Source: Hyphomicrobiales bacterium (lineage in GTDB: Bacteria > Pseudomonadota > Alphaproteobacteria > Rhizobiales > Beijerinckiaceae). Taken from it: a DNA stretch of 54,356 nt. The DNA is taken from the NCBI GenBank assembly GCA_027484605.1, contig JAIXSR010000123.1:1-54356 (forward strand). Reading direction: 5' to 3'. Positions within the stretch are counted from its first letter, which is position 1. Each line of letters begins with the position of its first letter. A model generated the notes under the pieces. The model was not told where the DNA came from. It saw only the letters and a program-made list of their open reading frames with translations, and ran no database searches. Of the stretch, positions 10,579 through 54,356 are shown piece after piece. Made by a program: the position numbers and the translations under genes.

Positions 10579-11634
10579 TCAGGGCGCCGGATTGCCGCGC
10601 ATCTGGTGGACGAGGTCGATCTTGCCCAGCAATTCGGGGCTGAGGGTCACGCCCTCGGAATCGATCGCGAGCTTGAGTTGCTCCATCGTTGTCGCACCGA
10701 TGATGTTCGAGGTCACGAAAGGACGGCTGTTGACGAAGGCATTGGCCATCAGGGCCGGATCAAGCCCGTATTCGCGGGCGAGGTCGACATAGTCGCGCAC
10801 GGCGACTTCCGAGCCGGGCTTCTCGTAGCGCTGCCCGCGGTTGAACAGGGTCGAGCGCGCACCGGCCGGGCGGGCGCCGTCGAGATACTTGCCGGAGAGA
10901 TAGCCCTGCGCCAGCGGCGAATAGGCGAGCAGGCCGACATCCTCGCGCAGCCAGATCTCGGCCAGCGCGGTCTCGAAGGTGCGGTTGAGCATGTTATAGG
11001 CGTTCTGGATCGACTGCATGCGCGGCAGGCCCTTCGCCTCGCTCTCGGCGAGATAGCGCATCGTGCCCCAGGCGCTCTCGTTCGAGAGGCCGAGATGCCG
11101 CACCTTGCCGGCCTTGATGAAGCCGGCGAGGATCTCGAGGACCTCGTGGAAGGGCGTTTCCTCGCCCGCTGTCTTGTAATCGGCCGCGTTGAACCGCGTC
11201 GGGTTCGAACCCCACGGCATCGCCCGGTCCGGCCAGTGCAGCTGGTAGAGATCGATGTAATCGGTCCGGAGGCGCTTCAGGCTGGAATCCAGCGCCTCTT
11301 CCATCTGGCAGCGGATCAGGCGGCCCTTCGACCCATCCTTGCGGAACCAGGTCATGTCCGAACGGCCGATCACCTTGGTGGCAAGGATCACCTTGTCGCG
11401 GTTTTTCCGGCTGGCGAACCACGTCCCCATGATCCGCTCGGTCGAGCCCTGGGTCTCCGCTGCTGGCGGGATCGAATAGAGTTCGGCGGTATCGAAGAAG
11501 TTCACGCCCCTGTCGAGGGCGTAATCCATCTGGGCATGGCCCTCGGCCTCGGTATTCTGCTGGCCCCAGGTCATGGTGCCGAGGCAGATGAGGGAAACAT
11601 CAAGTCCGGTTCGGCCAAGCGGTCGACGCTGCAT
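10579..11634 (-). CDS. tas: Aldo-keto reductase, Tas-like
   Basis: NADP(H)-dependent aldo-keto reductase of 351 aa. The catalytic tetrad is visible: D48 and Y53 in FFDTAELYS, K87 in ILATKVIG, and H133 in LYQLHWPD. Features shared with E. coli Tas include LGTMTWGQQNTEAEGHAQ near the N terminus, the PPAAETQGSTE loop, KPAGARxTLF-like sequence (ARPAGARSTLFNRGQRY here) and the terminal IDLVHQMRGNPAP. The physiological substrate of Tas is unknown; the E. coli gene was found as a suppressor of a tyrosine requirement. It lies 21 nt after yacG in the same direction, probably the third gene of a maf-yacG-tas unit. Confidence 0.85.
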   Translation of the reverse strand: MQRRPLGRTGLDVSLICLGTMTWGQQNTEAEGHAQMDYALDRGVNFFDTAELYSIPPAAETQGSTERIMGTWFASRKNRDKVILATKVIGRSDMTWFRKDGSKGRLIRCQMEEALDSSLKRLRTDYIDLYQLHWPDRAMPWGSNPTRFNAADYKTAGEETPFHEVLEILAGFIKAGKVRHLGLSNESAWGTMRYLAESEAKGLPRMQSIQNAYNMLNRTFETALAEIWLREDVGLLAYSPLAQGYLSGKYLDGARPAGARSTLFNRGQRYEKPGSEVAVRDYVDLAREYGLDPALMANAFVNSRPFVTSNIIGATTMEQLKLAIDSEGVTLSPELLGKIDLVHQMRGNPAP

Positions 11635-11655
11635 GTTCAGGTCCTTTTCGGGGAA

Positions 11656-36689: not shown

Positions 36690-37682
36690 TCAGAGCGCCT
36701 TCAGGGTATCGAAGGAACCCTTGCCCCAGCGGGCCTCGAACTTCGCCGGAACCGTGGCGAGGACGGGCTTGCGGAAGGCCTCGAGATCGGGCTCGATCAC
36801 CGTCATGCCCGCGCCTTTCAGCGTGGCCACAAGATTGGCCTCCTGGCTGAGCAATTCCTTGTCCTGCCAGGCCGCGGCCGCGTCGAAAGCGGATTGCAGC
36901 AGGCCGCGATCGGCCGCCGGGAGGCTCTTCCAGAAGCCGTCATTCACGATGATCATGCGCGGCGTGATGATGTGCTCGGTCAGGACGAGGAATTTCTGGA
37001 CCTCGAAGAACTTGCCCGACTGGATCGTCGGCAGCGGGTTTTCCTGCCCGTCGACCGCACCCTGGCTGAGCGCGAGATAGAGTTCCGGGAAGGCGATCGG
37101 CGTCGCCTTGGCACCCCAGGCATCGGCCATGGCCTGGAACACATCCACCGGCGGCACGCGCAGCTTGAATCCGACCATGTCGGCCGGGGTCCTGACGGCC
37201 TTGTTGCCCGTGGTGAGATGGCGCTTGCCGTAATAGGTGACGTTGAGCATCCGCATGCCGCGCTTGGCGGAAAGCTCCTCGTTCATCTTGGCGAAGATCG
37301 GCGTATCCTTCACCTTGGCGAGATGCGCCGCATCACGCCAGAGATACGGCGCCTCGACCAGCGTCAGCGCCGGAAGGAAAGCGCCGAGCGCGCCCGCACC
37401 GTCAGTGGTGAATTGCAGCGCTCCGGCCGAGACGGATTCCATCATGTCCTTGCCGGAGCCGAGCTGACCGCCCGGAAAGACCTGGATGTCGATCCGGCCG
37501 CTCGTCTTCTGTTTCACATCGGCGGCAATACGCTGGACCATCTGCACCTGCGGATGGGTGGCCGCGAGCAATTCGCCCCAGCGGATGGTGGTGGCCTGCG
37601 CCCGCAGCACGGACGGCATGGCCAGGGTGGCGCCGGCCAGGGTTGTGCCGGCCAGAAACCCGCGTCGATCGATCCTCGTCAT
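36690..37682 (-). CDS. dctP: TRAP transporter solute-binding protein (DctP type)
   Basis: 330-aa periplasmic protein with a twin-arginine signal peptide (DRRGFLAG, cleavage after LRAQA). Family features: TIRWGELLAATHPQVQMVQRIAADVKQKTSGRI, then DIQVFPGGQLGSGKDMMESV, GFKLRVPPVDVFQAMADAWGAKATPIAFPELYLALSQGAVDGQENP. The arginine in KLRVPP is the usual carboxylate-binding residue, so the ligand should carry a carboxylate, such as a sugar acid, rather than be a free neutral sugar. This fits import of an aldonate as well as, or instead of, the sugar itself. Confidence 0.9.
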   Translation of the reverse strand: MTRIDRRGFLAGTTLAGATLAMPSVLRAQATTIRWGELLAATHPQVQMVQRIAADVKQKTSGRIDIQVFPGGQLGSGKDMMESVSAGALQFTTDGAGALGAFLPALTLVEAPYLWRDAAHLAKVKDTPIFAKMNEELSAKRGMRMLNVTYYGKRHLTTGNKAVRTPADMVGFKLRVPPVDVFQAMADAWGAKATPIAFPELYLALSQGAVDGQENPLPTIQSGKFFEVQKFLVLTEHIITPRMIIVNDGFWKSLPAADRGLLQSAFDAAAAWQDKELLSQEANLVATLKGAGMTVIEPDLEAFRKPVLATVPAKFEARWGKGSFDTLKAL

Positions 37683-37723: not shown

Positions 37724-38380
37724 TCATTCGATGTTTATGGCGCGGCTCCGTGCCTGGTTGATATGGAAGGCCATCGCCGCCACGGCGCCCTCGGCATCCT
37801 TGCGCTCGATGGCCTCGATCACCTTGAGATGATCGCGCATGACCGGGATCACCAGATCGGCATAGAGCCGGGTCTCGTTCTGGCGGATCAGGCGGATCTT
37901 GATCCAGTTGACGCGGAAGGCATTGGAAATGATCTCGTTGTCGAGATGGTCGATCACCGCCTCGTGCAGCGACCGGTCGGTGGCCTCGGCATCGGCGATC
38001 AGCGTCTCGCGCTCGCCGGCCTCGGCCCGGGCGATGATCCGCTCATGGCTGGAGCGCAAGCCCGCAACCGCCGAATCCGAGCGGGCATGGGCGAAGAGCG
38101 CAGTGGCCTGCGTCTCGAGGAAGAGCCGGAACTGATAGGCGTTCCGGATCAGGCTCAGATCGACATGGGCCACCTGCATGCCGCGCTGCGGCACGGTGGT
38201 GATCAGCCCCTCGGCTTCAAGCCGGGGGATCAGCTCGCGGATCGCGCCGAGCGGGAGACCGGTCAACTCGACCAGTTCCCGCTGGGAAATGAATTGCCCC
38301 GGCCGGATCTCGCGCGAGAGCAGGCGCTCGGTGAAGCTCTCGTAGGCGCGCTCGCGAAGCTTGAGCGGGGTGCCGTTCAT
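37724..38380 (-). CDS. GntR family regulator with FCD ligand domain
   Basis: 218-aa regulator. The N-terminal winged helix is KLRERAYESFTERLLSREIRPGQFISQRELVELTGLPLGAIRELIPRLEAEGLI. The C-terminal FCD helical domain has the likely metal/ligand residues in DRSLHEAVIDH, VMRDHLKVIEAIERKD and AAMAFHINQARSR. FCD regulators usually respond to small carboxylates or sugar acids. It is the second gene of the operon, 1 nt after the aldolase gene, so it is transcribed with its targets. The TGTCA/TGACA repeat at 39332-39347 is the likely operator. Confidence 0.88.
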   Translation of the reverse strand: MNGTPLKLRERAYESFTERLLSREIRPGQFISQRELVELTGLPLGAIRELIPRLEAEGLITTVPQRGMQVAHVDLSLIRNAYQFRLFLETQATALFAHARSDSAVAGLRSSHERIIARAEAGERETLIADAEATDRSLHEAVIDHLDNEIISNAFRVNWIKIRLIRQNETRLYADLVIPVMRDHLKVIEAIERKDAEGAVAAMAFHINQARSRAINIE

Positions 38381-38381
38381 G

Positions 38382-39290
38382 TCATGCCGCCGCGCTGGCG
38401 CCGGAACGCAGCGCCGCAAGGGTCGCGGCCAGCTCGCGCGCGGCCGCTTCCGTCATGGGGTCCAGCGGTGACCGCATGACACGCCAACCGGCATCGCCGG
38501 TGCGCTCCGCGATCATCGCCTTGATGGCCGACATGAAGGAATGCTTGAGAATGGCATCGACCATCGCGTTGATGCGCGGGTCATCCTTGCCTTCGTTGGC
38601 CAGCGGGCGGAGCAGGTCCGGCGCGATATTGGCCAGGCCACAGATGCTGCCCGCGCCACCCGACCGGACCGACCGCGCAAGCTGGCGCTCGTCGCCCACC
38701 AGGATCTGAAGGCCCGGAAGTTCGGTGAGACGGCGCTCGGTGGCGTTCCAGTCGCCGTTGGAATCCTTCACGCCGACCACCACGCCGGGATAAGCCTTGG
38801 CGAGGCGCTGGGTCAGTTCGACCGAGATGCCATTCCGGGTCATTCCGGGGATATGATAGAGGATCACGTCGCGCAGCTGGCCGCCGAGTTGATCAAACAG
38901 GGCAGCGAAGAAGCGGAACAGGCCTTCATCGCTGGCATTACCGAAATAGAAGGGCGGCGCCAGCAGGAGCGCCCGGCAATCCATGGCATAGCCTGTCCGG
39001 GCCTGCTCGACCGCATCGTCCAGCGTGGCGGCCGAGACGCCGACCATCACCTTCCGGCGAAGATCGATCCCGCTCGCGCCGATCGCGCCCAGCATGCGGT
39101 TGCGCTCGGCATGGGCGAGCGAGGCGCCCTCGCCTGTCGTGCCGAACAGGGTGAACCCGTCGCAGCCATTGGCGAGAACCCATTGGGCATGGGAAACCAG
39201 CCGCGTCAGGCAAACCTGGCCATCGGCCTGGAACGGGGTGGAAAGCGCGCAGTTCAGGCCGATGCGGCCAGATGTCGATGTCGGTGTCAT
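38382..39290 (-). CDS. DapA/NAL family aldolase (2-keto-3-deoxy sugar acid type)
   Basis: 302-aa TIM-barrel lyase of the dihydrodipicolinate synthase/N-acetylneuraminate lyase family. Seen: GLNCALSTPFQADGQV, the GTTGE loop (50-54), Tyr145 in VILYHIPGMTRNGISVELTQRL, and the Schiff-base lysine K175 in GVVVGVKDSNGDW. In this operon the best match is a 2-keto-3-deoxy-L-fuconate-type aldolase, giving pyruvate and lactaldehyde. True DapA is unlikely because the neighbours are sugar genes. The ATG at 39290 has GAGGGA upstream. It is the first gene of the operon. Confidence 0.85.
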   Translation of the reverse strand: MTPTSTSGRIGLNCALSTPFQADGQVCLTRLVSHAQWVLANGCDGFTLFGTTGEGASLAHAERNRMLGAIGASGIDLRRKVMVGVSAATLDDAVEQARTGYAMDCRALLLAPPFYFGNASDEGLFRFFAALFDQLGGQLRDVILYHIPGMTRNGISVELTQRLAKAYPGVVVGVKDSNGDWNATERRLTELPGLQILVGDERQLARSVRSGGAGSICGLANIAPDLLRPLANEGKDDPRINAMVDAILKHSFMSAIKAMIAERTGDAGWRVMRSPLDPMTEAAARELAATLAALRSGASAAA

Positions 39291-45065: not shown

Positions 45066-46122
45066 AGGCGTGCTCAACGATGCCGCCCGCCCGGTCAAGC
45101 TCGGCTTTGAGGACCGGCAGGGTTTCCAGTCGCACGAAATAGCCCAGACGCAGCCAGCCCTGGCGCGCCTGCAGCGGCGCCGTGATCAGGGCCGGTGGCA
45201 AAGTCTGCGGCGTCTTCCAGGATCCCGGGACGAGCACGGTCACGAAGATTTCCGTCTGGCCGGCAATCTCGAGGATTCGGTGCCCCCGGCCGATCTGGTG
45301 GAGCAGAAAGGCCGTGAAGGCGCGATAGCGGGGTGTCTCGACGATCACGCTGCCATCCGGGCGCCGCTCGACGATGGTCAACTCGCCCGTCGGCTCCACG
45401 CCCGAAAGGACGCTGCGGATCGTCAGGCTTGCCGGAGACAGCCCTGCCGCGGCGGCCATCAGCCGGGCATAGAGCGCCTTGCCGCCCCATTCGAGCGACA
45501 GGGCGAGGCGGCGCTCCACCGAGCGGGCGGGCGCCGTGCCTTGCCAGGGCAATTCCCAGAGCTTGCCGAGATAGTCGGCGAAGGGAAAGGCATACCACGG
45601 CGTCTGCTGGAGAAACGCGGCATAGGTATCCGCCATTTGCCAGGCGAGGAGATCCTCGGCGGGAAATGGCGCCGCGGAGGGGCGGAACAAGACGCCGATT
45701 GTCGTTTCATAAAGGCCTTTCACGCCGAGTTCGGCCGAGAAGCTGACCCCGATGATGTAAAGCATGGCCTTGATGTCGCTGGAGACCGTCCCGCGTGACG
45801 AGGCCGTCCGCGCCAGCGAACACAGGTTGCTCCAGTAATCGCCGATTGCCTCGCGGTAGGCGAAGGCGCCCTCCCCGTTGCGCCGCGAGACGGCCGCGAG
45901 GTCCTCATAGGCATGGACGATGGACCATTCCGGATAGGTCAGGAATGTATCAACCAGTGCCCGATGATGTTCCGGCGCCAGTGCACTGCCGCGAATGGGG
46001 GGCGCCGGATTGGCCGGCCCGAAACACTGGGTCTCGACATAGAGGATCGGGGCAGCCGCCGCGATGGCCAGCAAGACCACAACGAGGCCGAGATTGCGCA
46101 GGAGGCGGAACAGGCCCCGCAT
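45055..46122 (-). CDS. Membrane-anchored protein of unknown function, 355 aa
   Basis: The N terminus has a signal anchor (LGLVVVLLAIAAAAPILYVE, about residues 11-30). A large, presumably periplasmic, domain follows with the distinctive segment ALVDTFLTYPEWSIVHAYEDLA and then GDYWSNLCSLARTASSRG. Further conspicuous stretches are DIKAMLYIIGVSFSAELGVKGLYETTIG and TPWYAFPFADYLGKLWELPW. The C-terminal 140 residues look like a beta-rich domain (ELTIVERRPDGSVIVETPRYRAF, HRILEIAGQTEIFVTVLVPG). I do not recognise a described family. It starts 3 nt after the 135-aa membrane gene and overlaps the next gene by 11 nt. Co-expression with a Tat-exported FAD oxidase suggests a periplasmic redox or small-molecule role, which is inference. 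Confidence 0.75.
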   Translation of the reverse strand: MRGLFRLLRNLGLVVVLLAIAAAAPILYVETQCFGPANPAPPIRGSALAPEHHRALVDTFLTYPEWSIVHAYEDLAAVSRRNGEGAFAYREAIGDYWSNLCSLARTASSRGTVSSDIKAMLYIIGVSFSAELGVKGLYETTIGVLFRPSAAPFPAEDLLAWQMADTYAAFLQQTPWYAFPFADYLGKLWELPWQGTAPARSVERRLALSLEWGGKALYARLMAAAAGLSPASLTIRSVLSGVEPTGELTIVERRPDGSVIVETPRYRAFTAFLLHQIGRGHRILEIAGQTEIFVTVLVPGSWKTPQTLPPALITAPLQARQGWLRLGYFVRLETLPVLKAELDRAGGIVEHAYDY

Positions 46123-46542: not shown

Positions 46543-47988
46543 TTACAGGCGATCAAGATACGCATCCCACATCGTGTTGCGGAACAGGAGCTTCGGATCG
46601 ATCTGGCGCTTTCGCGCGGCAAAGAGGCGGGCACCGGGATAGATCGAGAGGAACTGGTCGGGCCGGGCATGCAGGCGATAGGGCAGATAATAGCTGCCGC
46701 CGATGCTCCCGACCATATCGATCAGCGCTTCGGTGGTGGCGATCATGTCCGTCTCGCCGTTCGGATTGTTCTTCTGCGAGAAGGACATGACGGCAGCGAT
46801 GCGGTCCGTTGTGGCATAGGAGAGAAGGCTGGTGGAATCGCGCTTCACGTGGCGCAGCGTGACGTTGAGGAATTCTGCCGATGCCCGCGGGATGATGCGG
46901 CGGCACCCTTCGAGAAAGGCCTTGAACTGGTCAGGCGCGACGAAATACTCATGCAGGATATCCGTCCGGCGGTAGTCCCGGTTGGCGAGATTCAGCACCG
47001 GCTCATTCATGAGGCTGTTGCGTGTGGCAATGCCGGAGGAAAGGGCCGGCCCCGCCGTCTTTTCCATGAACCAGCGCAGGCTCTTGCCCCATTCCCGCTC
47101 CACCTGGGCGCGGTAGACGCGGCGGGAAAAGCCGCTCAGGGCGCTTTCCCGCGTGGCGGGCGGCAGACCGGCTGGGGGGACGGGCTCGCGCCGGTAGGTG
47201 ATGAGAAGGGCCTCCTCGAAGAAGCTGCCGCGTTCGACATTCAGGCGGCCATAGATCATCGGCACGGCAGGGTCATTCGCGGCGTTGATGAAGCGCGGCG
47301 CGAAATCCGCCGCTGGCATGGATTCGAATTTCGGTCGGAGGAGCATGTTCTCGACCATCTCGACATCGAGGTCGAGAATGATGCCGAAGGCGCCATATCC
47401 GCCCATGGCGAGACCGAACAATTCGGCATTTTCGTCACGCGAGCAGCGGATGACCGTGCCATCGGCCAGCATGATGCGGAAAGCGCGCACCGTGGCGCCG
47501 AACGGTCCGTAGGGTGTCGGCCAGCCATGGGCATTGACCGAAAAGGTGGCCGCGACACCGAAATCGCTGTTTGACTGCATAACGGCCGGCGAGAACCCGG
47601 CGGGATCGAGGCGCGCGATCACCTGGTGCCAGCGCGTGCCGCCGGCTGCGCGGAACAGCTTCCCCGCGCGGTCCAACTCGGTCTGGTCGATATCCAGCGT
47701 CATGGCCACGCCATCGCGCATCAGCGCCTGCCCGCCCATCGAATGGCGCGCAGCCCCGATGCAGACCGGGCGCCCCTGGCTTTCGGCCGCCTTCAGTTCC
47801 CGCCGCAGCGCCGCGACGAGATCGGCCTCGGCGTTGCGGACATGCCAGTGCCGCGCCACCGGCGTCGGGTTGAGCCGACTGGCATCGTTCATGATGAGCC
47901 GCGTCTGGCCCCGAACCGGGCCTGGCAGGGTGGCCAGTGCAACGGCCCCGGCGCCTGCCATCACGGCGCGCCGCGTCAATCTGGGCAT
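46543..47988 (-). CDS. Tat-exported FAD-binding oxidase of the VAO/PCMH (sugar-lactone oxidase-like) family
   Basis: 481-aa flavoprotein with a twin-arginine signal (LTRRAVMAGAGAVALATL, cleavage near VRGQ). The FAD domain has RPVCIGAARHSMGGQ, in which H82 of the RHS motif corresponds to the histidine that binds FAD covalently in aldonolactone and alditol oxidases. Further PCMH motifs are GVAATFSVNAHGWPTPYGPFG, VRAFRIMLADGTVIRCSRDEN, and GGYGAFGIILDLDVEMV. The C terminus keeps the family pattern DPKLLFRNTMWDAYL. It would oxidise an alcohol, lactone or polyol in the periplasm. The substrate is unknown, and the three co-transcribed membrane proteins give no direct clue. Start at ATG 47988 after GGAGG; TTG 47994 is also possible. 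Confidence 0.85.
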   Translation of the reverse strand: MPRLTRRAVMAGAGAVALATLPGPVRGQTRLIMNDASRLNPTPVARHWHVRNAEADLVAALRRELKAAESQGRPVCIGAARHSMGGQALMRDGVAMTLDIDQTELDRAGKLFRAAGGTRWHQVIARLDPAGFSPAVMQSNSDFGVAATFSVNAHGWPTPYGPFGATVRAFRIMLADGTVIRCSRDENAELFGLAMGGYGAFGIILDLDVEMVENMLLRPKFESMPAADFAPRFINAANDPAVPMIYGRLNVERGSFFEEALLITYRREPVPPAGLPPATRESALSGFSRRVYRAQVEREWGKSLRWFMEKTAGPALSSGIATRNSLMNEPVLNLANRDYRRTDILHEYFVAPDQFKAFLEGCRRIIPRASAEFLNVTLRHVKRDSTSLLSYATTDRIAAVMSFSQKNNPNGETDMIATTEALIDMVGSIGGSYYLPYRLHARPDQFLSIYPGARLFAARKRQIDPKLLFRNTMWDAYLDRL

Positions 47989-48087
47989 GACCAACCTCCC
48001 CCGGGAATCGCGAACCCCCCGGGGAGGATACAGATTGCCGGCGCGTGGCCAAGCGATGACGGTGCCTGCGCGCCTGCTGCCGCCGTC

Positions 48088-48127
48088 TTGCAGAAATGAA
48101 CGCGCACGCTGTATACAGCATACTTGA
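48088..48127 (+). promoter_or_regulatory. Promoter and 19-bp operator A upstream of the PdxA2-type gene
   Basis: TTGCAG (48088-48093) and TGTATA (48110-48115) form a -35/-10 pair with 16-nt spacing. The -10 is embedded in CTGTATACAGCATACTTGA (48109-48127), which contains the perfect palindrome GCTGTATACAGC at 48108-48119. The 19-bp sequence recurs before two other units (52374 and 53838). Confidence 0.65.
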
Positions 48128-48204
48128 CCAATGAGAGCGAGGTTTCTAGGTTAGGCTCCGAGGCGGCGCCCGTGTGCCCCTGCTCTTCGGAAGGAGTTTC
48201 GACG

Positions 48205-49215
48205 ATGGATGCCAGCCGGCCTGTCCTTGCCCATGTGATTGGCTGCCCGGCGGGCATTGCACCCGAACTTTCCGCCCGCATCCTCGCGGATCCCGAGATC
48301 CATGCCGGCGCGCGCATCATCGCCATCGGCGATGCGCGGGTGCTCGCTGCCGGCGCGAAATCAGCCGGTGTTTCCGTCTCGCTCCCGACGATCCGCGATG
48401 GCGACTCGATCCCTTCCGGGAACGGTCCGGTGCTCATTGACATGGCGCATCTCGACCCTGCCACGATCCGCCCCGGCGAGTTGCAGAAGCCAGCCGGCGA
48501 TGCCGCGATGGCCAATTTCCGCAAGGGACTGGCCTTGGCCAAGGCCGGGGTTGTTGATGGGGTGACCTTCTCGCCCTTCAACAAGGCCTCGATGCGGCTC
48601 TCCCATCCGGCTTACGAAGACGAGGTCGTCTTCATGAACGAGTTCCTCGATTTCAAGGGAACCGCCAGCGAATTCAACATCCTGCCGGATCTCTGGAATG
48701 CCCGCGTCACCTCGCATGTGCCGATCTCCGGCGTTGCGCCGCTGATCACGGCGGAGAATGTGACCCGCGCGCTGCGCCTGACCGACCAGGCGATGCGGGC
48801 TGCCGGATGGTCGCGCCCAAGGATCGGCGTAGCAGGCCTCAACCCCCATGCCGGGGATGGCGGCAATTTCGGCCGCGAGGAGATTGACGTGCTCGAACCC
48901 GTGGTGGCGGCCGGCCAGCGCGAGGGCATTGCCTGCGCAGGCCCCTTTCCTTCGGATACTGTTTTCGTCCGGGCCCGCAAGGGCGAGTTCGATGCAGTGC
49001 TGACCATGTATCATGACCAGGGCCAGATCGCGATGAAGCTGATCGGGTTCGACCAGGGCGTGACCGTCCTTGGCGGCTATTCCTTCCCCATCGCCACGGC
49101 GGCCCATGGCTCGGCCTATGACATTGCCGGCAAGGGCGTCGCCAATCCCGATGCCATGCGCAATGCCATGAGCATCGCGATCCGGATGGCTGCAGCTCGC
49201 CGCAAGGCGGCCTGA
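48205..49215 (+). CDS. pdxA2: PdxA2-type 4-hydroxythreonine-4-phosphate dehydrogenase family protein
   Basis: 336-aa metal- and NAD-dependent dehydrogenase of the PdxA fold. The three metal histidines are present: H171 in TSHVPISG, H215 in GLNPHAGDGG, and H270 in MYHDQGQIAMKLIGFDQGVTV. The substrate-phosphate loop of biosynthetic PdxA (GHTE) is replaced by YEDE at 137-140, which points away from vitamin B6 synthesis. PdxA2-type enzymes in sugar-acid clusters oxidise and decarboxylate 4-phospho-D-threonate or -erythronate to dihydroxyacetone phosphate. A DUF1537 kinase that would supply such a substrate is not in the window. AAGGAG precedes the ATG at 48205. Shared operators tie it to the neighbouring transporters. 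Confidence 0.82.
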   Translation: MDASRPVLAHVIGCPAGIAPELSARILADPEIHAGARIIAIGDARVLAAGAKSAGVSVSLPTIRDGDSIPSGNGPVLIDMAHLDPATIRPGELQKPAGDAAMANFRKGLALAKAGVVDGVTFSPFNKASMRLSHPAYEDEVVFMNEFLDFKGTASEFNILPDLWNARVTSHVPISGVAPLITAENVTRALRLTDQAMRAAGWSRPRIGVAGLNPHAGDGGNFGREEIDVLEPVVAAGQREGIACAGPFPSDTVFVRARKGEFDAVLTMYHDQGQIAMKLIGFDQGVTVLGGYSFPIATAAHGSAYDIAGKGVANPDAMRNAMSIAIRMAAARRKAA

Positions 49216-49248
49216 GCTGTTCTTCCTGTTCTCAGGATGAGGAATGAC

Positions 49249-49273
49249 AAACGCCGCCTTTCTGGCGGCGTTT
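49249..49273. terminator. Bidirectional intrinsic terminator
   Basis: AAACGCCGCC (49249-49258) and GGCGGCGTTT (49264-49273), a perfect 10-bp stem with a 5-nt loop, between the convergent pdxA2 and tctA genes. On the plus strand the right arm ends in TTTTC; on the minus strand the stem likewise ends in TTT, followed by GTCATTCCTC. Confidence 0.85.
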
Positions 49274-49303
49274 TCGCGTCGTCGCGCGGAAGGTGTTTGG
49301 CCG

Positions 49304-50803
49304 TCAGGCCCGCGACGGCCGCAGCCGCTGGCGAAGCGCGCCGAGGAGCGGCCAGAAGAGCAGGACAAGCCCCAGCAGCATCAGGCTGGTGACCAGCGGG
49401 TTGGACCAGAAGATCGCCAGCGATCCCTTTGACATGATCATCGACTGGCGGAAGGCGTCCTCGGCCTTGTCGCCGATCACCATGGCGAGGATCAGCGGCG
49501 CGATCGGGTAGTCGAGCTTCTTGAAAGCATAGCCCAGCACCCCGAAGGCAAGCGCCAGCCATAGATCGAAGGGCCGGCCGGCAATCGTGTAGGCTCCGAT
49601 GAAACAGACGACAACGATCAGCGGGCCAATAATGGCGAAGGGGATGCGCAGGATCGAGGCGAAGAGCGGCACGGTGGCGAGAACCAGCACGACGGCAACG
49701 ACATTGCCGAGATACATCGAGGCGATCAGGCCCCAGACGAAATCCGGCCGCTCAACGAAAAGCATCGGACCGGGATTGAGCCCCCAGATCATCAGCCCGC
49801 CCAGCATGACGGCGGCGGTGGCCGAGCCCGGCAGGCCGAGCGCCATCATCGGCAGCATGGCCGAGGTCCCGGCGGAATGATCGGCGGTTTCCGGCGCGAT
49901 CACGCCATCCGGCTCGCCCTTGCCGAAATTGGCGCGATAGGCCGAGAAGCGCTTGGCGAGGCCGTAGGACATGAAGGAGGCTGCCGTCGGGCCACCGGGC
50001 GTGATGCCCATCCAGCAGCCGACAATCGAGGAGCGCAGCAGCGTCGCCCAATGCTTTGGCATCTGCATGGCCGTGCGCAGCACATCACGCGGGGTGATCT
50101 TGGCGCGGATGCCATCGAGCTTCAGGCCATCCTCGATGGTGAGGATCAACTCGCCGATGCCGAAAAGGCCGATGACGGCGACGAGGAAGCTGATGCCGGC
50201 CAGCAGAACATCAAAGCCGAAGGTCAGGCGCAGGCTGCCGGAGACCGAATCCATACCGACGGCCGCGAGCGAGAAGCCGAGGGCGATCGAAACCGCCGCC
50301 TTGAGCGGCGGCGCGCCGGACAGGCCGACAAAGCTGGCAAAGGCGAGGAAATAGACGCCGAAGAATTCCGGCGAGGAGAACTTCAGGGCGAATTGCGTGA
50401 CCCAGCCCGAAAGCGCCGTGATCAGCAGCACGCCCACGATCGCGCCGAAGCCGGCGGAGAGAAAGGCGAAGCTGAGCGCCTCGGTGGCGCGGCCATTCTG
50501 CGCCATCGGATAGCCGTCGAAGGTTGTCGCGACCGAGGAAGGCTCACCCGGAATGTTGAAGAGGATCGAGGTTGTCGATCCGCCGAACAGCGCGCCCCAG
50601 TACATGCTGGTCAGCAGGATGATGGCCGCGACGGGATCCATCGTGAAGGTGAGCGGCAGCAGGAGCGAGACGCCGTTCGGCGCGCCCAGTCCCGGCAGGA
50701 CGCCGACCAGGATGCCCAGCAGCACGCCGATCACCATCAGCAGGATGTGATGCCAGGTCAGCGCGACGCCGAATCCGTGCAGGAGGCCCGAAAATCCATC
50801 CAT
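49304..50803 (-). CDS. tctA: Tripartite tricarboxylate transporter large permease (TctA), system 2
   Basis: 499-aa integral membrane protein with family signatures [53 protein letters not shown], and the second loop WMGITPGGPTAASFMSYGLAKRFS. Distinct in sequence from the TctA at 14298-15797, so it is not a recent duplicate. It is the last gene of a tctC-tctB-tctA operon. ATG 50803 lies 7 nt after the tctB stop; the frame extends upstream to 50854 inside tctB. It ends near the bidirectional terminator. Confidence 0.92.
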   Translation of the reverse strand: MDGFSGLLHGFGVALTWHHILLMVIGVLLGILVGVLPGLGAPNGVSLLLPLTFTMDPVAAIILLTSMYWGALFGGSTTSILFNIPGEPSSVATTFDGYPMAQNGRATEALSFAFLSAGFGAIVGVLLITALSGWVTQFALKFSSPEFFGVYFLAFASFVGLSGAPPLKAAVSIALGFSLAAVGMDSVSGSLRLTFGFDVLLAGISFLVAVIGLFGIGELILTIEDGLKLDGIRAKITPRDVLRTAMQMPKHWATLLRSSIVGCWMGITPGGPTAASFMSYGLAKRFSAYRANFGKGEPDGVIAPETADHSAGTSAMLPMMALGLPGSATAAVMLGGLMIWGLNPGPMLFVERPDFVWGLIASMYLGNVVAVVLVLATVPLFASILRIPFAIIGPLIVVVCFIGAYTIAGRPFDLWLALAFGVLGYAFKKLDYPIAPLILAMVIGDKAEDAFRQSMIMSKGSLAIFWSNPLVTSLMLLGLVLLFWPLLGALRQRLRPSRA

Positions 50804-50810
50804 CGCCGTC

Positions 50811-51299
50811 TCACAATCCCAGGAAGGCTTCGAGCGGGCCCTTGAGCATCGCAACCTTGAACACCCGCTCGATCAGCAGGTAGGCAAGGAACGGTGTCGT
50901 CAGGGCAATGAGTCCGGCCTTGATCACGGGGTAACGGTTCTGCAGCACGAGCGTGCCGAACAGGTAAAGCGCCATCCCGACATAGAGGCCGAGCATCAGG
51001 CTGGCGACGACCAGGCCGAGGATCGGCAGGGTGAAGCCCAGGACAAGCCGCATCTGCTCGGGCTTCAGGAAGGCCTGCCCGGCCCAGAGACCGGGCCGCA
51101 GCAGGGGCAAGGCGGCGCGCAGGCCATTGGCGACGCTGGCGAGCAGGACGATGATCCCCATATAGAAGGGGAAGGCACCCGGCTCCGGCCCCGAGGGCGA
51201 CCAGCCGACCCCGTATTCCAGCGCGCCGATGATCGTCACGATGCCGATGACGGCCAACAAGGCCGCCATCCCGAGTTCTGCCTGCCAGCGCGCGACCAT
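50811..51299 (-). CDS. tctB: Tripartite tricarboxylate transporter small subunit (TctB), system 2
   Basis: 162-aa protein with four predicted helices. The N terminus MAALLAVIGIVTIIGALEYGVGWSPSGPEPGAFPFYMGIIVLLASV is typical of TctB, with the conserved G-P-x-P-G-x-F-P loop after helix 1. It is an auxiliary membrane subunit of TctA. It starts 12 nt after tctC and ends 7 nt before tctA. Confidence 0.88.
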   Translation of the reverse strand: MVARWQAELGMAALLAVIGIVTIIGALEYGVGWSPSGPEPGAFPFYMGIIVLLASVANGLRAALPLLRPGLWAGQAFLKPEQMRLVLGFTLPILGLVVASLMLGLYVGMALYLFGTLVLQNRYPVIKAGLIALTTPFLAYLLIERVFKVAMLKGPLEAFLGL

Positions 51300-51311
51300 G
51301 GCCCGCTGTCC

Positions 51312-52304
51312 TTACTTCACAATCCAGCCTTCGCGCTCGAACACTTCGCGCGAGAGCTTGTCATCATTGGCCACGAAGGCCTTCAGGCTGTCGCCCGACA
51401 GGAACTGGCCGGTCTGGACCGTCCGCGTGATGTATTCCTGCCATTCCGGGGTTTCCGAGACCTTCTTGAGAACACCCTCGTAGAACTGGGCAGCGCCGGG
51501 CGGCGTGCCGGCCGGGAGCCAGACAGTGCGCGGCATCTGGAAGCGCTCGACCGGGATGCCGGCTTCCTTGCAGGTGGGAATGTCGGCCCAGCCGGCCGTC
51601 TCGGTCACCTTCGGACCTGCCGGCAGGCGCGCCGGCGAGAAGACGCAGAGCGGGCGGACCTGCCCGGCCTTCCACTGGCCGATGCTCTCGTTGGGATTGT
51701 TGGTATGCGAGTTCACATGCCCGCCGGCGAGCTGGGTGCCGACGGCGCCGCCACCCTGGAACGGGACGTAGATGAATTTCGCGCCCGTCACCGTGGAGAG
51801 GATGCTGGTCAGCGTCTGGTCGGTATCCTTCGACTGGCTGCCGCCCATCTTGTAGGTCTCGGGCTTGGCCTTGACAGCCTCGACATAGTCCTTCGCGGTC
51901 TTGTAGGGCGCATCCGCCTTGACCCACAGCAGGAACTCGTCAAGCGCCAGGGCTGCCACCGGCGTCAGGTCCGAGAATTTGTAGCCGAGCTTGGCGACAT
52001 AGGGCAGCAGATAGGCGTTGTTGGTGCCGAAAATGACCTTGTAGGGGTCTCCGGCGGCTGTCTTGGAGACGAGATAGCCTTCCGCGCCCGAACCGCCGCC
52101 CTTGTTGCTGACGACAATCGGCTGGTCGATCAGCTTGTACTTCATGATGATCGACTGGATCATCCGGGTAAAGTTGTCGGTGCCGCCGCCGGGGCTGGAC
52201 GTCACGACGAACTCGATCGGCTTGGTCGGCTGCCAGCCCTGTGCGGCCGCGCCAGCCATGCCGGCGGCCAGGAAGCCGAGCGCCATTCCGAGTCTGCGAG
52301 TCAT
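51312..52304 (-). CDS. tctC: Tripartite tricarboxylate transporter substrate-binding protein (TctC), system 2
   Basis: 330-aa periplasmic binding protein with signal peptide MTRRLGMALGFLAAGMAGAAAQ. The ligand loop region is IEFVVTSSPGGGTDNFTRMIQSII, followed by VVSNKGGGSGAEGYLVSKTAAG and the YVPFQGGGAVGTQLAGGHV stretch, all TctC/Bug family. It is the first gene of the operon, divergent from the SAF-domain gene across a 123-nt region carrying operator B. Ligand unknown; the regulatory link to PdxA2 suggests a short sugar acid. Confidence 0.92.
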   Translation of the reverse strand: MTRRLGMALGFLAAGMAGAAAQGWQPTKPIEFVVTSSPGGGTDNFTRMIQSIIMKYKLIDQPIVVSNKGGGSGAEGYLVSKTAAGDPYKVIFGTNNAYLLPYVAKLGYKFSDLTPVAALALDEFLLWVKADAPYKTAKDYVEAVKAKPETYKMGGSQSKDTDQTLTSILSTVTGAKFIYVPFQGGGAVGTQLAGGHVNSHTNNPNESIGQWKAGQVRPLCVFSPARLPAGPKVTETAGWADIPTCKEAGIPVERFQMPRTVWLPAGTPPGAAQFYEGVLKKVSETPEWQEYITRTVQTGQFLSGDSLKAFVANDDKLSREVFEREGWIVK

Positions 52305-52364
52305 TCTTACCTCCCTTTGCTCATGATTCGACGCAGGCCCTTGGATGGCCCGCTTGCCGACAAC

Positions 52365-52393
52365 TTGTCATATCTGTATGCAGCATGCAACAT
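52365..52393. promoter_or_regulatory. 19-bp operator B in the divergent tctC/SAF-gene promoter region
   Basis: CTGTATGCAGCATGCAACA (52374-52392) matches operators A and C at the same 13 positions. For the plus strand, TTGTCA (52365-52370), 17 nt, then CAACAT (52388-52393) is a possible promoter spanning the operator, 35 nt before ATG 52428. Being between divergent genes, the site could control both. Confidence 0.65.
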
Positions 52394-52427
52394 TCATCCT
52401 GTTTGCGCCCGATCAGGATTCCCGCCC

Positions 52428-53819
52428 ATGAACTATCACCATCGCTATGCCGCACTTGCTGCCCCGGTTGGCCTTTGCGTCATCGGGAGCGGGCAATTCG
52501 GCCAGAGCCTGATCGCGCAGGCGCGGCATATTCCGCGCCTCGCTCCCCGGATTGCCGTCGATCTCACGGCGGAAGCTGCCGGACGCGCCTTCGTGGCCGC
52601 CGGGCATGATCCGCTTGACGTCGCCCTCTGCACCAACGCGCGCGAGGCCCGCTCCGCCCATGATGCGGGCAAGCTCGTGGCGGCGGGCTCCCTCGACATC
52701 GTGCTCGACCTGCCCTTCGACATCCTCGTCGAGGCGACAGGACATCCGGAAGCGGCGGCCCGGCACAGCCTCGCGGCGATCGAGGCGCGGCGCCATGTGC
52801 TGCTCGTCAGCAAGGAAGCGGATTCCGTGGCCGGGCCGATCCTCGCGCGGAAGGCGCGGGAGAATGGCGTCCGCATCGCCCCGGTCGATGGCGACCAGCC
52901 GAGCCTCCTGATCGACCTCGTCACCTGGGCGGAAACCCTCGGCTTCGAGCTTCTCTGTGCCGGCAAGTCCAGCGAATATGATTTTGTGGTCGATCCGGCA
53001 TCCGATGGTGTCACCTGCAACGGCGTGCCGGCGCGCATCGAAGGGATCGGCGCCGCCTGGAACAATCCGGCCAGCCCGGCCACCAAGCGTGCGGCGGATC
53101 GTGCCAATCTGCTGGGCCGGCATTTCCTGCTGCGCGCCGTTCCCGATCTCTGCGAAATGACCCTCGTGGCCAATGCGACGGGCCTTGCCGCAGATCAGCC
53201 CGGGTTCCATTGCCCGGTAGCCCGTATTCCCGAGATCGCCGATCTGTTCCGGCCGCAGGATATGGCCGGCCTCCTCTCTGGCGGGCGCCGGCTCGACGTG
53301 TTTCACCATATCCGGCTGGCGGAGGAAGCGAGCTTTGCCGGCGGTGTCTTTGTCTGCGTCCGGTGCCAGGACCGGACGGCCTGGCAGGTGCTGGCGGAAA
53401 AGGGCCATGCCGTCAGCCGGGATGGCCAGACCGCCATGATCTACCTGCCCCGCCATCTGCTCGGCCTGGAGGCGGCGACCAGCCTGTTCGACCTCGCGGC
53501 TTTCGGCGAGACACCCTATGGCCCGGATTACGCGCCGAAGCAGGATCTCGTCGCGGTGACCACCCGCCCCCTCGCCGCCGGCAGGCTGCTGGAGGCCCGC
53601 GGCCATCACCATACGATCGACGGCGTGACGGCCGAGATGCGGCCGGCCGTGCCGCTCTCCGCCGAAGCCACAACGCCGTATTACCTTGTCGCCAACCGCG
53701 TGCTGGCCCGTGATCTGCCGGCGGGAATGGCCATCCGCCCCTCCGACCTCGCCTTCGAGCTGAAATCGACCCTGCTTGATCTGCGCCTCCAGCAGGACGC
53801 GGCCTTCCTCGGCGCTTGA
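52428..53819 (+). CDS. NAD(P)-binding protein with C-terminal SAF domain (homoserine dehydrogenase-like)
   Basis: 463-aa protein of the COG4091 type. The N-terminal Rossmann motif is VGLCVIGSGQFGQSL (G20-x-G22-x-x-G25), followed by a VALCTNAREARSAH segment, LVEATGHPEAAARHSLAAIEARRHVLLVSKEAD, and VDGDQPSLLIDLVTWAETLGFELLCAGKSSEYD. The last 80 residues (LVANRVLARDLPAGMAIRPSDLAFE) are an SAF domain. It is a predicted NAD(P)-dependent oxidoreductase; the true substrate of this family is poorly defined, and members often lie in sugar-acid gene clusters with PdxA2-type and aldolase genes. The ATG at 52428 (AGGA upstream) is chosen because the longer frame runs through the divergent promoter and tctC. 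Confidence 0.8.
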   Translation: MNYHHRYAALAAPVGLCVIGSGQFGQSLIAQARHIPRLAPRIAVDLTAEAAGRAFVAAGHDPLDVALCTNAREARSAHDAGKLVAAGSLDIVLDLPFDILVEATGHPEAAARHSLAAIEARRHVLLVSKEADSVAGPILARKARENGVRIAPVDGDQPSLLIDLVTWAETLGFELLCAGKSSEYDFVVDPASDGVTCNGVPARIEGIGAAWNNPASPATKRAADRANLLGRHFLLRAVPDLCEMTLVANATGLAADQPGFHCPVARIPEIADLFRPQDMAGLLSGGRRLDVFHHIRLAEEASFAGGVFVCVRCQDRTAWQVLAEKGHAVSRDGQTAMIYLPRHLLGLEAATSLFDLAAFGETPYGPDYAPKQDLVAVTTRPLAAGRLLEARGHHHTIDGVTAEMRPAVPLSAEATTPYYLVANRVLARDLPAGMAIRPSDLAFELKSTLLDLRLQQDAAFLGA

Positions 53820-53856
53820 CAAGGGCAGACGCGCGTTCTGTATTCTGCATACAACA
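53816..53856 (+). promoter_or_regulatory. Promoter and 19-bp operator C upstream of TRAP transporter 2
   Basis: TTGACA (53816-53821), 17 nt, TGTATT (53839-53844). The -10 lies within CTGTATTCTGCATACAACA (53838-53856), whose core TGTAT-TCTGC-ATACA is a perfect 5-bp-arm inverted repeat. It has the same arrangement as operator A. The -35 overlaps the stop of the preceding SAF gene. Confidence 0.7.
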
Positions 53857-53873: not shown

Positions 53874-54356
53874 TTGTTCGAGCGCCTCTTCCTCCGGCTC
53901 GTCGAGAATGCCCTGATCCTTGCGCTCGTCGTGATGATCGCGCTGGTCTTCGGCAATGTCGTCATGCGCTACGGCTTTGACTCGGGGATTATCCAGTCGG
54001 AGGAAATCGCGCGGATCCTCTTCGTCTGGCTGACCTTCGGCGGCGCATTCCTGGTTGCCCGGGAGCACGGACATCTCGGCATGACCTCTGTCGTCGGCGC
54101 GCTGGGCCCTTCGGGCCAGAAGGCATGCCGGGTCTTTGCCGAACTCGTCTCGCTGGGCTGCATCGGCCTCGTCGTGATCGGCTCCTGGCGGCAGGCTGTC
54201 ATCAATATCGACAATTACGCCCCGATTACCGGCGTTCCGCTGGCGCTGACCTATATTGCGGCGCTTGTTGGCGGAATCGGGATCGCAGCGCTGAACATCG
54301 TGGCGCTTTACCGGCTCGCCACAGGCCGGATGCCGCCGGAGGACTATGTCGTGGGA
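53874..54356 (+). CDS. dctQ: TRAP transporter small permease (DctQ type), partial at the right edge
   Basis: 161 codons are visible before the window ends. It begins FERLFLRLVENALILALVV, followed by FGNVVMRYGFDSGIIQSEEIARILFVWLTFGGAFLVAREHGHLGM, the DctQ signature with the E-x-A-R-x-x-x-x-W and E-H-x-H-L patterns, and two further helices. The start is taken as TTG at 53874, since the only nearby ATG (53860) is out of frame. It is the first gene of a second TRAP unit whose large permease and binding protein should follow beyond the window. Operator C places it in the same regulon as pdxA2 and tctCBA 2. Confidence 0.82.
   Translation, partial: MFERLFLRLVENALILALVVMIALVFGNVVMRYGFDSGIIQSEEIARILFVWLTFGGAFLVAREHGHLGMTSVVGALGPSGQKACRVFAELVSLGCIGLVVIGSWRQAVINIDNYAPITGVPLALTYIAALVGGIGIAALNIVALYRLATGRMPPEDYVVG

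Follow-up and report, generated by a model that had tools for sequence, protein, structure and literature searches.

The right-hand end of a 54,356-nucleotide contig from a Hyphomicrobiales bacterium holds a cluster of transport and enzyme genes in which three copies of a short palindrome stand in front of three predicted units. The contig, referred to here as the window, is the whole of contig C94 in assembly G000, which comprises 4,009,353 bases in 171 contigs. The units begin with a pdxA2-like gene, with the divergent pair of tctC and a gene for a SAF-domain oxidoreductase related to DXR-II, and with dctQ of a TRAP transporter, which is the second such transporter in the stretch. The three sites are very probably binding sites of a regulator encoded just past the end of the window, and that regulator is most likely a repressor.

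The original prediction, made from the letters of the window, described 19-mers at 48109, 52374 and 53838 that agree at 13 of 19 positions, and both the places and the agreement are confirmed. Its core, TGTAT-N5-ATACA, is exact at the third site, but the first site ends in ATACT and the second in ATGCA. The motif is better described as a 15-bp odd palindrome with the consensus TGTATGC-N-GCATACA. With up to three mismatches, this palindrome occurs at sites 1 to 3 and nowhere else in the 54,356 bases of the window. A pattern built from the three 19-mers gives six matches in the window at up to two mismatches, compared with 0.72 in shuffled sequence; these are the three sites, sites 1 and 3 read once more in shifted or opposite-strand form, and a stray match at 45423. 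Across the assembly, the 15-base pattern CTGTATNCNGCATNC has four exact matches, at sites 1 to 3 and at C44:106418. The palindrome is found in the assembly at three places with no more than one mismatch (sites 2 and 3 and C44:106419) and at eight places with no more than two, four of which are sites 1 to 3 and C44:106419; the reversed pattern gives no place at two mismatches. The motif is rare in the assembly, and the cluster holds four sites rather than the three first described, the fourth being that at C44:106419.

The sites are also conserved in four relatives (loci L087 to L090), with the own sequence and all four relatives (five genomes) aligned for sites 1 to 3, and the own sequence and L087 to L089 for site 4. 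All 15 columns are identical at site 1, against 95 of 220 other columns, and all 15 at site 2, against 71 of 120; at site 3, 14 of 15 columns are identical, with 13 of 55 in the flanks. Site 4 is identical in the four aligned sequences, but its flank is well conserved too and the site is hence less telling. All four sites stand at the same places in L087 to L089, and three do so in L090, whose retrieved locus ends before the fourth. In the whole genomes of the four relatives, TGTATNCNGCATNCA with up to one mismatch finds the four cluster sites in each and a further 1, 7, 1 and 7 places outside the cluster, where reversed-pattern controls give 2, 2, 1 and 2.

A GntR gene was predicted to lie just to the right of the window, and one is found on contig C124, whose first 68 bases are identical to the last 68 of the window. 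C124 aligns over 9,442 bases, at 90%, to the stretch expected next in L090. About 3 kb past the window end, at G000:C124:3156-3854, it encodes a 232-residue protein with an N-terminal winged helix-turn-helix domain of the GntR family (PF00392, 1.5e-16) and a C-terminal FCD domain (PF07729, 1.8e-24), both above the cut-off. The assembly has 19 FCD genes in all, this one included. Its product is 96-98% identical to the protein of the same cluster in L087 to L090, and in all four the gene lies downstream of site 3. The tie of the site to the regulator rests on these relatives and on the exact overlap between C94 and C124. In an alignment, an Asn/Asp and three His of the protein, a possible metal site of the FCD domain, pair with those of 7xp0; the metal ligands of Atu1419 are given as Asn137 and three His (PMC7797058).

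The claim that no regulator lies in the stretch itself holds for the likely cognate gene, which is beyond the window, but the window does contain another FCD-type GntR gene (37724-38419), to the left of the part in which the claim was made. That gene stands beside a DctP gene (36690-37682) and perhaps serves its own TRAP system. As a candidate for the cognate regulator it was set aside in favor of the C124 gene, given the place of the latter in the cluster of the relatives and the counts of upstream sites described below.

Coordinates in the window of the cluster genes and predicted operator sites
Feature	Position	Strand	Remarks
FAD-binding oxidase gene	46543..47994	-	PF01565; orthologue at same place in L087-L090; divergent from pdxA2
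Operator site 1 (predicted)	48110..48124	+	TGTATACAGCATACT; between FAD-oxidase gene and pdxA2; 2 mismatches to palindrome
pdxA2-like gene (PdxA family), unit 1	48205..49215	+	PF04166, E 5.8e-80
tctA, transporter subunit	49304..50803	-	within open reading frame 49304-50854; orthologues 97-98% identical in L087-L090; named by homology and operon place
tctB, transporter subunit	50811..51299	-	open reading frame; orthologues in L087-L090
tctC, solute-binding subunit, unit 2 left	51312..52304	-	PF03401
Operator site 2 (predicted)	52375..52389		TGTATGCAGCATGCA; between divergent tctC and DXR-II-like (SAF) gene; 1 mismatch
DXR-II-like oxidoreductase with SAF domain, unit 2 right	52428..53819	+	PF21135 DRL_cat and PF08666 SAF; nearest solved structures 3upl, 3upy
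Operator site 3 (predicted)	53839..53853	+	TGTATTCTGCATACA; 5' of dctQ and, farther on, gntR; 1 mismatch
dctQ of TRAP transporter, first gene of unit 3	53874..54356	+	PF04290; runs off contig, continues on C124

Names for tctA and tctB, the dctM of unit 3, the dctQ of the further TRAP set described next and a dehydrogenase-like gene come from homology, position or inspection by eye; those of the scanned proteins come from Pfam. In the relatives, the left part of the cluster has the gene for the flavin adenine dinucleotide (FAD)-binding oxidase and the pdxA2-like gene diverging from site 1, and tctA-B-C and the DXR-II-like gene diverging from site 2. The FAD-binding oxidase gene may share site 1 with pdxA2. 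In the middle, site 3 is followed by dctQ, dctM, dctP, a cyclase gene and gntR. Facing these on the right are genes for an enoyl-coenzyme A (CoA) hydratase, a CoA-transferase, a further TRAP set (dctM-Q-P), a 3-hydroxyisobutyrate-dehydrogenase-like protein and an amidohydrolase, which run leftward from site 4, and a dapA-like gene runs rightward from the same site. L090 and C94/C124 have a TRAP set between site 3 and gntR, which L087 to L089 lack (at about 11427-11647). In these three, 171-227 bp separate site 3 from the gntR gene that follows it; in L090 site 3 precedes dctQ, with gntR 3.6 kb farther on. The right part of C124 and the end of C44, where site 4 lies, align to neighboring and overlapping stretches of L087 and L088.

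Possible promoter elements were found at three of the four sites. The end of site 4 coincides with TTGCGA, which is 16 bp from TATAGT, so that the site overlaps the -35 of the only promoter-like match in that region. The original prediction placed the -10 inside the motif in two of three cases, which may hold for site 3, where TGTATT within the site is a possible dctQ -10 (read by eye), with TTGACA 17 bp upstream of it. By contrast, the element at site 1 is a possible pdxA2 -35, also read by eye, in that the last base of the site starts TTGACC, 17 bp from TAGGTT, and the position of the promoter at site 2 is uncertain. TTGACC is kept in all five genomes and TAGGTT in three of them. The TTGACA before site 3 is likewise kept in all five, although, given its overlap with the stop codon of the DXR-II-like gene, part of its conservation may be coding. 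Because the sites overlap possible promoter hexamers, occlusion of RNA polymerase, and hence repression, would be the simplest reading.

There is good confidence that the motif is the operator of the FCD-type GntR repressor encoded in the cluster, with four sites, autoregulation and release by an inducer, a reading built on the computed sites, their conservation, the place of the gene and the match between site and regulator clade. By position and conservation, a site stands before the unit of the regulator itself and before neighboring transport and enzyme genes, as expected of a local, autoregulated catabolic regulon, and the local regulon of the original prediction is borne out to that extent. 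In the proposed mechanism, the GntR protein would sit on its operators when no substrate-derived inducer is present and would block RNA polymerase at the promoters of pdxA2, of tctC and the DXR-II-like gene, of the predicted dctQ-M-P-cyclase-gntR operon, and of the amidohydrolase and dapA-like genes. With site 3 upstream of the unit that contains gntR, the protein would also limit its own synthesis. An inducer, probably an imported acid or an intermediate formed from it, would bind to the FCD domain, upon which the protein would leave the DNA and the transporters and enzymes would be made together.

The regulator could instead be an activator, or act in both directions, although this seems unlikely. 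Some activators touch polymerase at the -35, and site 1 lies at a possible -35. However, site 3 covers the possible -10 read by eye, the -35 of the promoter match is overlapped by site 4, and the two regulators used for comparison, Atu1419 (PMC7797058) and NanR (PMC8012715), are both repressors.

The named loci, which were reached via the DXR-II-like protein (80 kept of 113 stretches encoding a relative), can be used to ask whether the site goes with the regulator or with the enzyme. A tblastn search with the C124 protein separated 34 orthologues, scoring at least 200 bits, from 44 other FCD genes with lower scores; this border was chosen after the scores were known, at a gap from 229 to 169. 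Within 300 bp upstream, TGTATNCNGNATACA with up to two mismatches is found at 22 of the 34 orthologues (shuffled mean 0.14) and at none of the 44 other genes (0.3), and with up to three mismatches at 29 (2.0) and 2 (2.98), respectively; near-identical species inflate such counts, and the shuffles keep base composition only. By position, the motif thus stands upstream of the regulator gene itself, both in these 22 orthologues and, at site 3, before the gntR unit. These counts bear on the possibility that another regulator, for example the FCD GntR protein of the window (37724-38419) or a LysR-type protein, owns the sites and that gntR is a mere neighbor. The presence of that second FCD gene would favor it, as would the orthologues in genomes G082 and G207, which have no site nearby. 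Nonetheless, the DXR-II-like gene is no more than 1,500 bp away for 31 of the 44 other FCD genes and for just 9 of the 34 orthologues; therefore, the site follows the regulator clade and not the enzyme. A motif that went with the pathway genes alone would not split the two groups, and ownership by another regulator is quite improbable. It is highly improbable that the likeness is a by-product of common promoter sequence, such as TGTAT-like -10 elements, with no operator at all, for although two window sites overlap possible promoter hexamers, the motif is palindromic, varies in its position with respect to the likely promoter, occurs at few places in the assembly and has stayed almost unchanged between flanks that have diverged, as at site 3.

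A second sample was drawn by a search for the regulator in 249 genomes of the order, 29 of which matched at E 1e-50, the own genome included; 19 of the 28 others, those given a locus, were tested. This sample is only partly independent of the first, in that several of these genomes also carry the DXR-II-like gene and some may share species with the named loci. The upstream site is present at 7 of the 19 loci, and all 7 are among the 12 most similar. A related pattern, CTGTATNCNGNATACA, is present in 10 of the 249 genomes, again with the own genome included. The G188 genome has a single match, whose 15-mer is that of site 2; it lies 3.7 kb from the gntR orthologue and before a frame resembling an ABC permease.

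Several results weigh against assignment of the motif to the cluster-encoded GntR protein, or against the map on which that assignment draws. The same 295 bases occur in the C124 end (L167 9151-9445) and in the C44 end (L050 15604-15898) at 90.8% identity, with 27 mismatches; the assembly may combine two strains, one for each contig, or contain a duplicated stretch. Because C124 and C44 are not simply joinable, the right half of the cluster map rests on the relatives. A promoter search of the window part gave nothing above threshold, so that the hexamers at sites 1 to 3 are readings by eye. Twelve of the 34 orthologues fail the two-mismatch cut-off, and five of these 12 fail that of three mismatches also. 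In L090 and L123 the site stands instead before dctQ, and in L091 and L093 before the DXR-II-like gene, but for the L096 orthologue no site was found. In the second sample, 12 of the 19 loci lack an upstream site at two mismatches. The regulator of G082, from the same genus, is 72% identical, yet no site lies upstream of it and the three one-mismatch sites of that genome are on other contigs; for G207 (68% identical) there is none upstream, and the one match with one mismatch is 1.9 Mb off, inside a coding frame. The reversed pattern also gives one place each in G188 and G207, so a single match alone is at chance level, and the match in G188 counts for its nearness to gntR. As a separate observation, G082 (L218, L219) has no match for the DXR-II-like gene, and one-mismatch sites stand there just 5' of two frames that, by eye, resemble a four-carbon acid sugar kinase (DUF1537) and a 2-hydroxyacid dehydrogenase.

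With the motif taken as the operator of the GntR protein, the arrangement is a fairly ordinary one, but with an unusual layout of the binding site. The original prediction held the spacing to be typical of FadR-type dimers, which does not hold in that form. The usual distance between GT and AC in FadR-type sites is 2-3 nt (GT-N2-3-AC), according to PMC4494728, whereas 9 nt separate the outer GT from the outer AC here (GT-N9-AC). Each half, however, holds a self-complementary GYATRC-like box, and each of these inner boxes fits GT-N2-AC with one degenerate side. Column counts for the motif came from 19 sites, taken from the 29 orthologues with up to three mismatches as one per near-identical group as judged, with the 5 site-less orthologues left out.

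GYATRC boxes with up to one mismatch were surveyed in 112 promoter regions of the orthologue loci, with shuffles that keep dinucleotides. There are 35 pairs of boxes offset by 7 bp, compared with a shuffled mean of 2.05 (maximum 7), and 12 pairs offset by 14 bp, compared with 2.36 (maximum 10), counts that near-identical species again inflate. The 19 representative loci have 17 pairs at offset 7 and 7 at offset 14, counted without a shuffle for this subset. All four promoter regions of the own cluster carry a 7-bp pair, and positions 1-47000 of the window hold none among 325 boxes. The 8-mer TGTATACA, which is also within site 1, occurs 18 times in the 112 regions (shuffled 0.17), and TGTAT-N5-ATACA occurs six times (0.02), here with shuffles of base composition only. 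The sites thus resemble two or three GYATRC boxes repeated every 7 bp, and the data are compatible both with one dimer on a wide palindrome and with several dimers on an array of boxes. It is tentatively proposed that the regulator clade uses the stepped array, on which neighboring dimers, two or three in number or joined as a dimer of dimers, would bind next to one another at intervals of roughly two thirds of a helical turn. Such a repeated-box operator would differ from FadR-type single palindromes and from the GGTATA repeats of NanR. If so, the number of boxes would set the strength of repression promoter by promoter, and the array would be a testable variation in how GntR proteins read DNA.

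Three known systems offer comparisons. Atu1419 of Agrobacterium fabrum, of the VanR group, is a GntR repressor with an FCD domain that controls catabolic genes as well as its own gene, and its box ATGTATACAT contains the 8-mer shared with site 1; unlike the two or three boxes stepped by 7 bp here, its sites are single 10-bp palindromes, far apart and bound by a tetramer, and the genes that it regulates differ from those of this cluster (PMC7797058). NanR of Escherichia coli is a GntR-family repressor that also acts on a closely repeated box, with three dimers binding (GGTATA)3 cooperatively, whereas the boxes here are GTATAC-like (PMC8012715). FadR-subfamily operators share the GT/AC palindrome and, in many groups, have weaker extra boxes 7-12 nt from the center, but differ in the GT-AC distance noted above (PMC4494728). 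The terms pdxA and TRAP are absent from the main text of the latter report. No paper describing this operator or regulon was found in the open-access literature by title and start of abstract.

The enzyme encoded at site 2 falls in the DXR-II-like group by its PF21135 domain and nearest structure, 3upl. DXR-II is described in PMC3847144 by Thr229 and by Lys191 and Lys193, which anchor fosmidomycin. In a pairwise alignment that was counted by hand and is weak in this stretch, Thr229 corresponds to Asp and Lys193 to Ser, and Lys191 is kept. Because of these two replacements, the SAF protein is unlikely to be a 1-deoxy-D-xylulose 5-phosphate reductoisomerase, and it may belong with the DLO families, which the same paper called uncharacterized in 2013 (PMC3847144). 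The PdxA, FAD oxidase, cyclase, amidohydrolase, DapA-like, CoA-transferase and enoyl-CoA hydratase genes of the cluster suggest an acidic carbohydrate as substrate, and the L101 locus adds dihydroxyacetone and FGGY kinases. The apparent co-regulation of the oxidoreductase with transporters and enzymes under one predicted sensor gives a lead to its function, and identification of the inducer to which the GntR protein responds would lead straight to the substrate.

The four places outside the cluster that match the palindrome at two mismatches are C16:118, C36:3324, C44:37801 and C162:7250. The copy at C36:3324 was taken as chance, as it has no counterpart among the one-mismatch matches of the four relatives. 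Those at C16:118 and C162:7250 have two mismatches to TGTATNCNGCATNCA and so fall outside the one-mismatch search of these relatives. C44:37801 (L053 7802-7816, or G000:C44:37801-37815, two mismatches) is kept as a candidate site, and the identical 15-mer is found in G250 and G252; it overlaps the start of a FAD-oxidoreductase frame, however, and coding conservation could account for the sharing. A reading of site 1 as a terminator or hairpin, from a stem listed at 48104-48123 that overlaps the operator, was dropped because four promoters share the motif in palindromic form. Immediately to the left of site 2, at 52359-52369, GACAACTTGTC forms an 11-bp perfect odd palindrome that is identical in all five aligned genomes and is perhaps the site of a second regulator or a -35 (TTGTCA).

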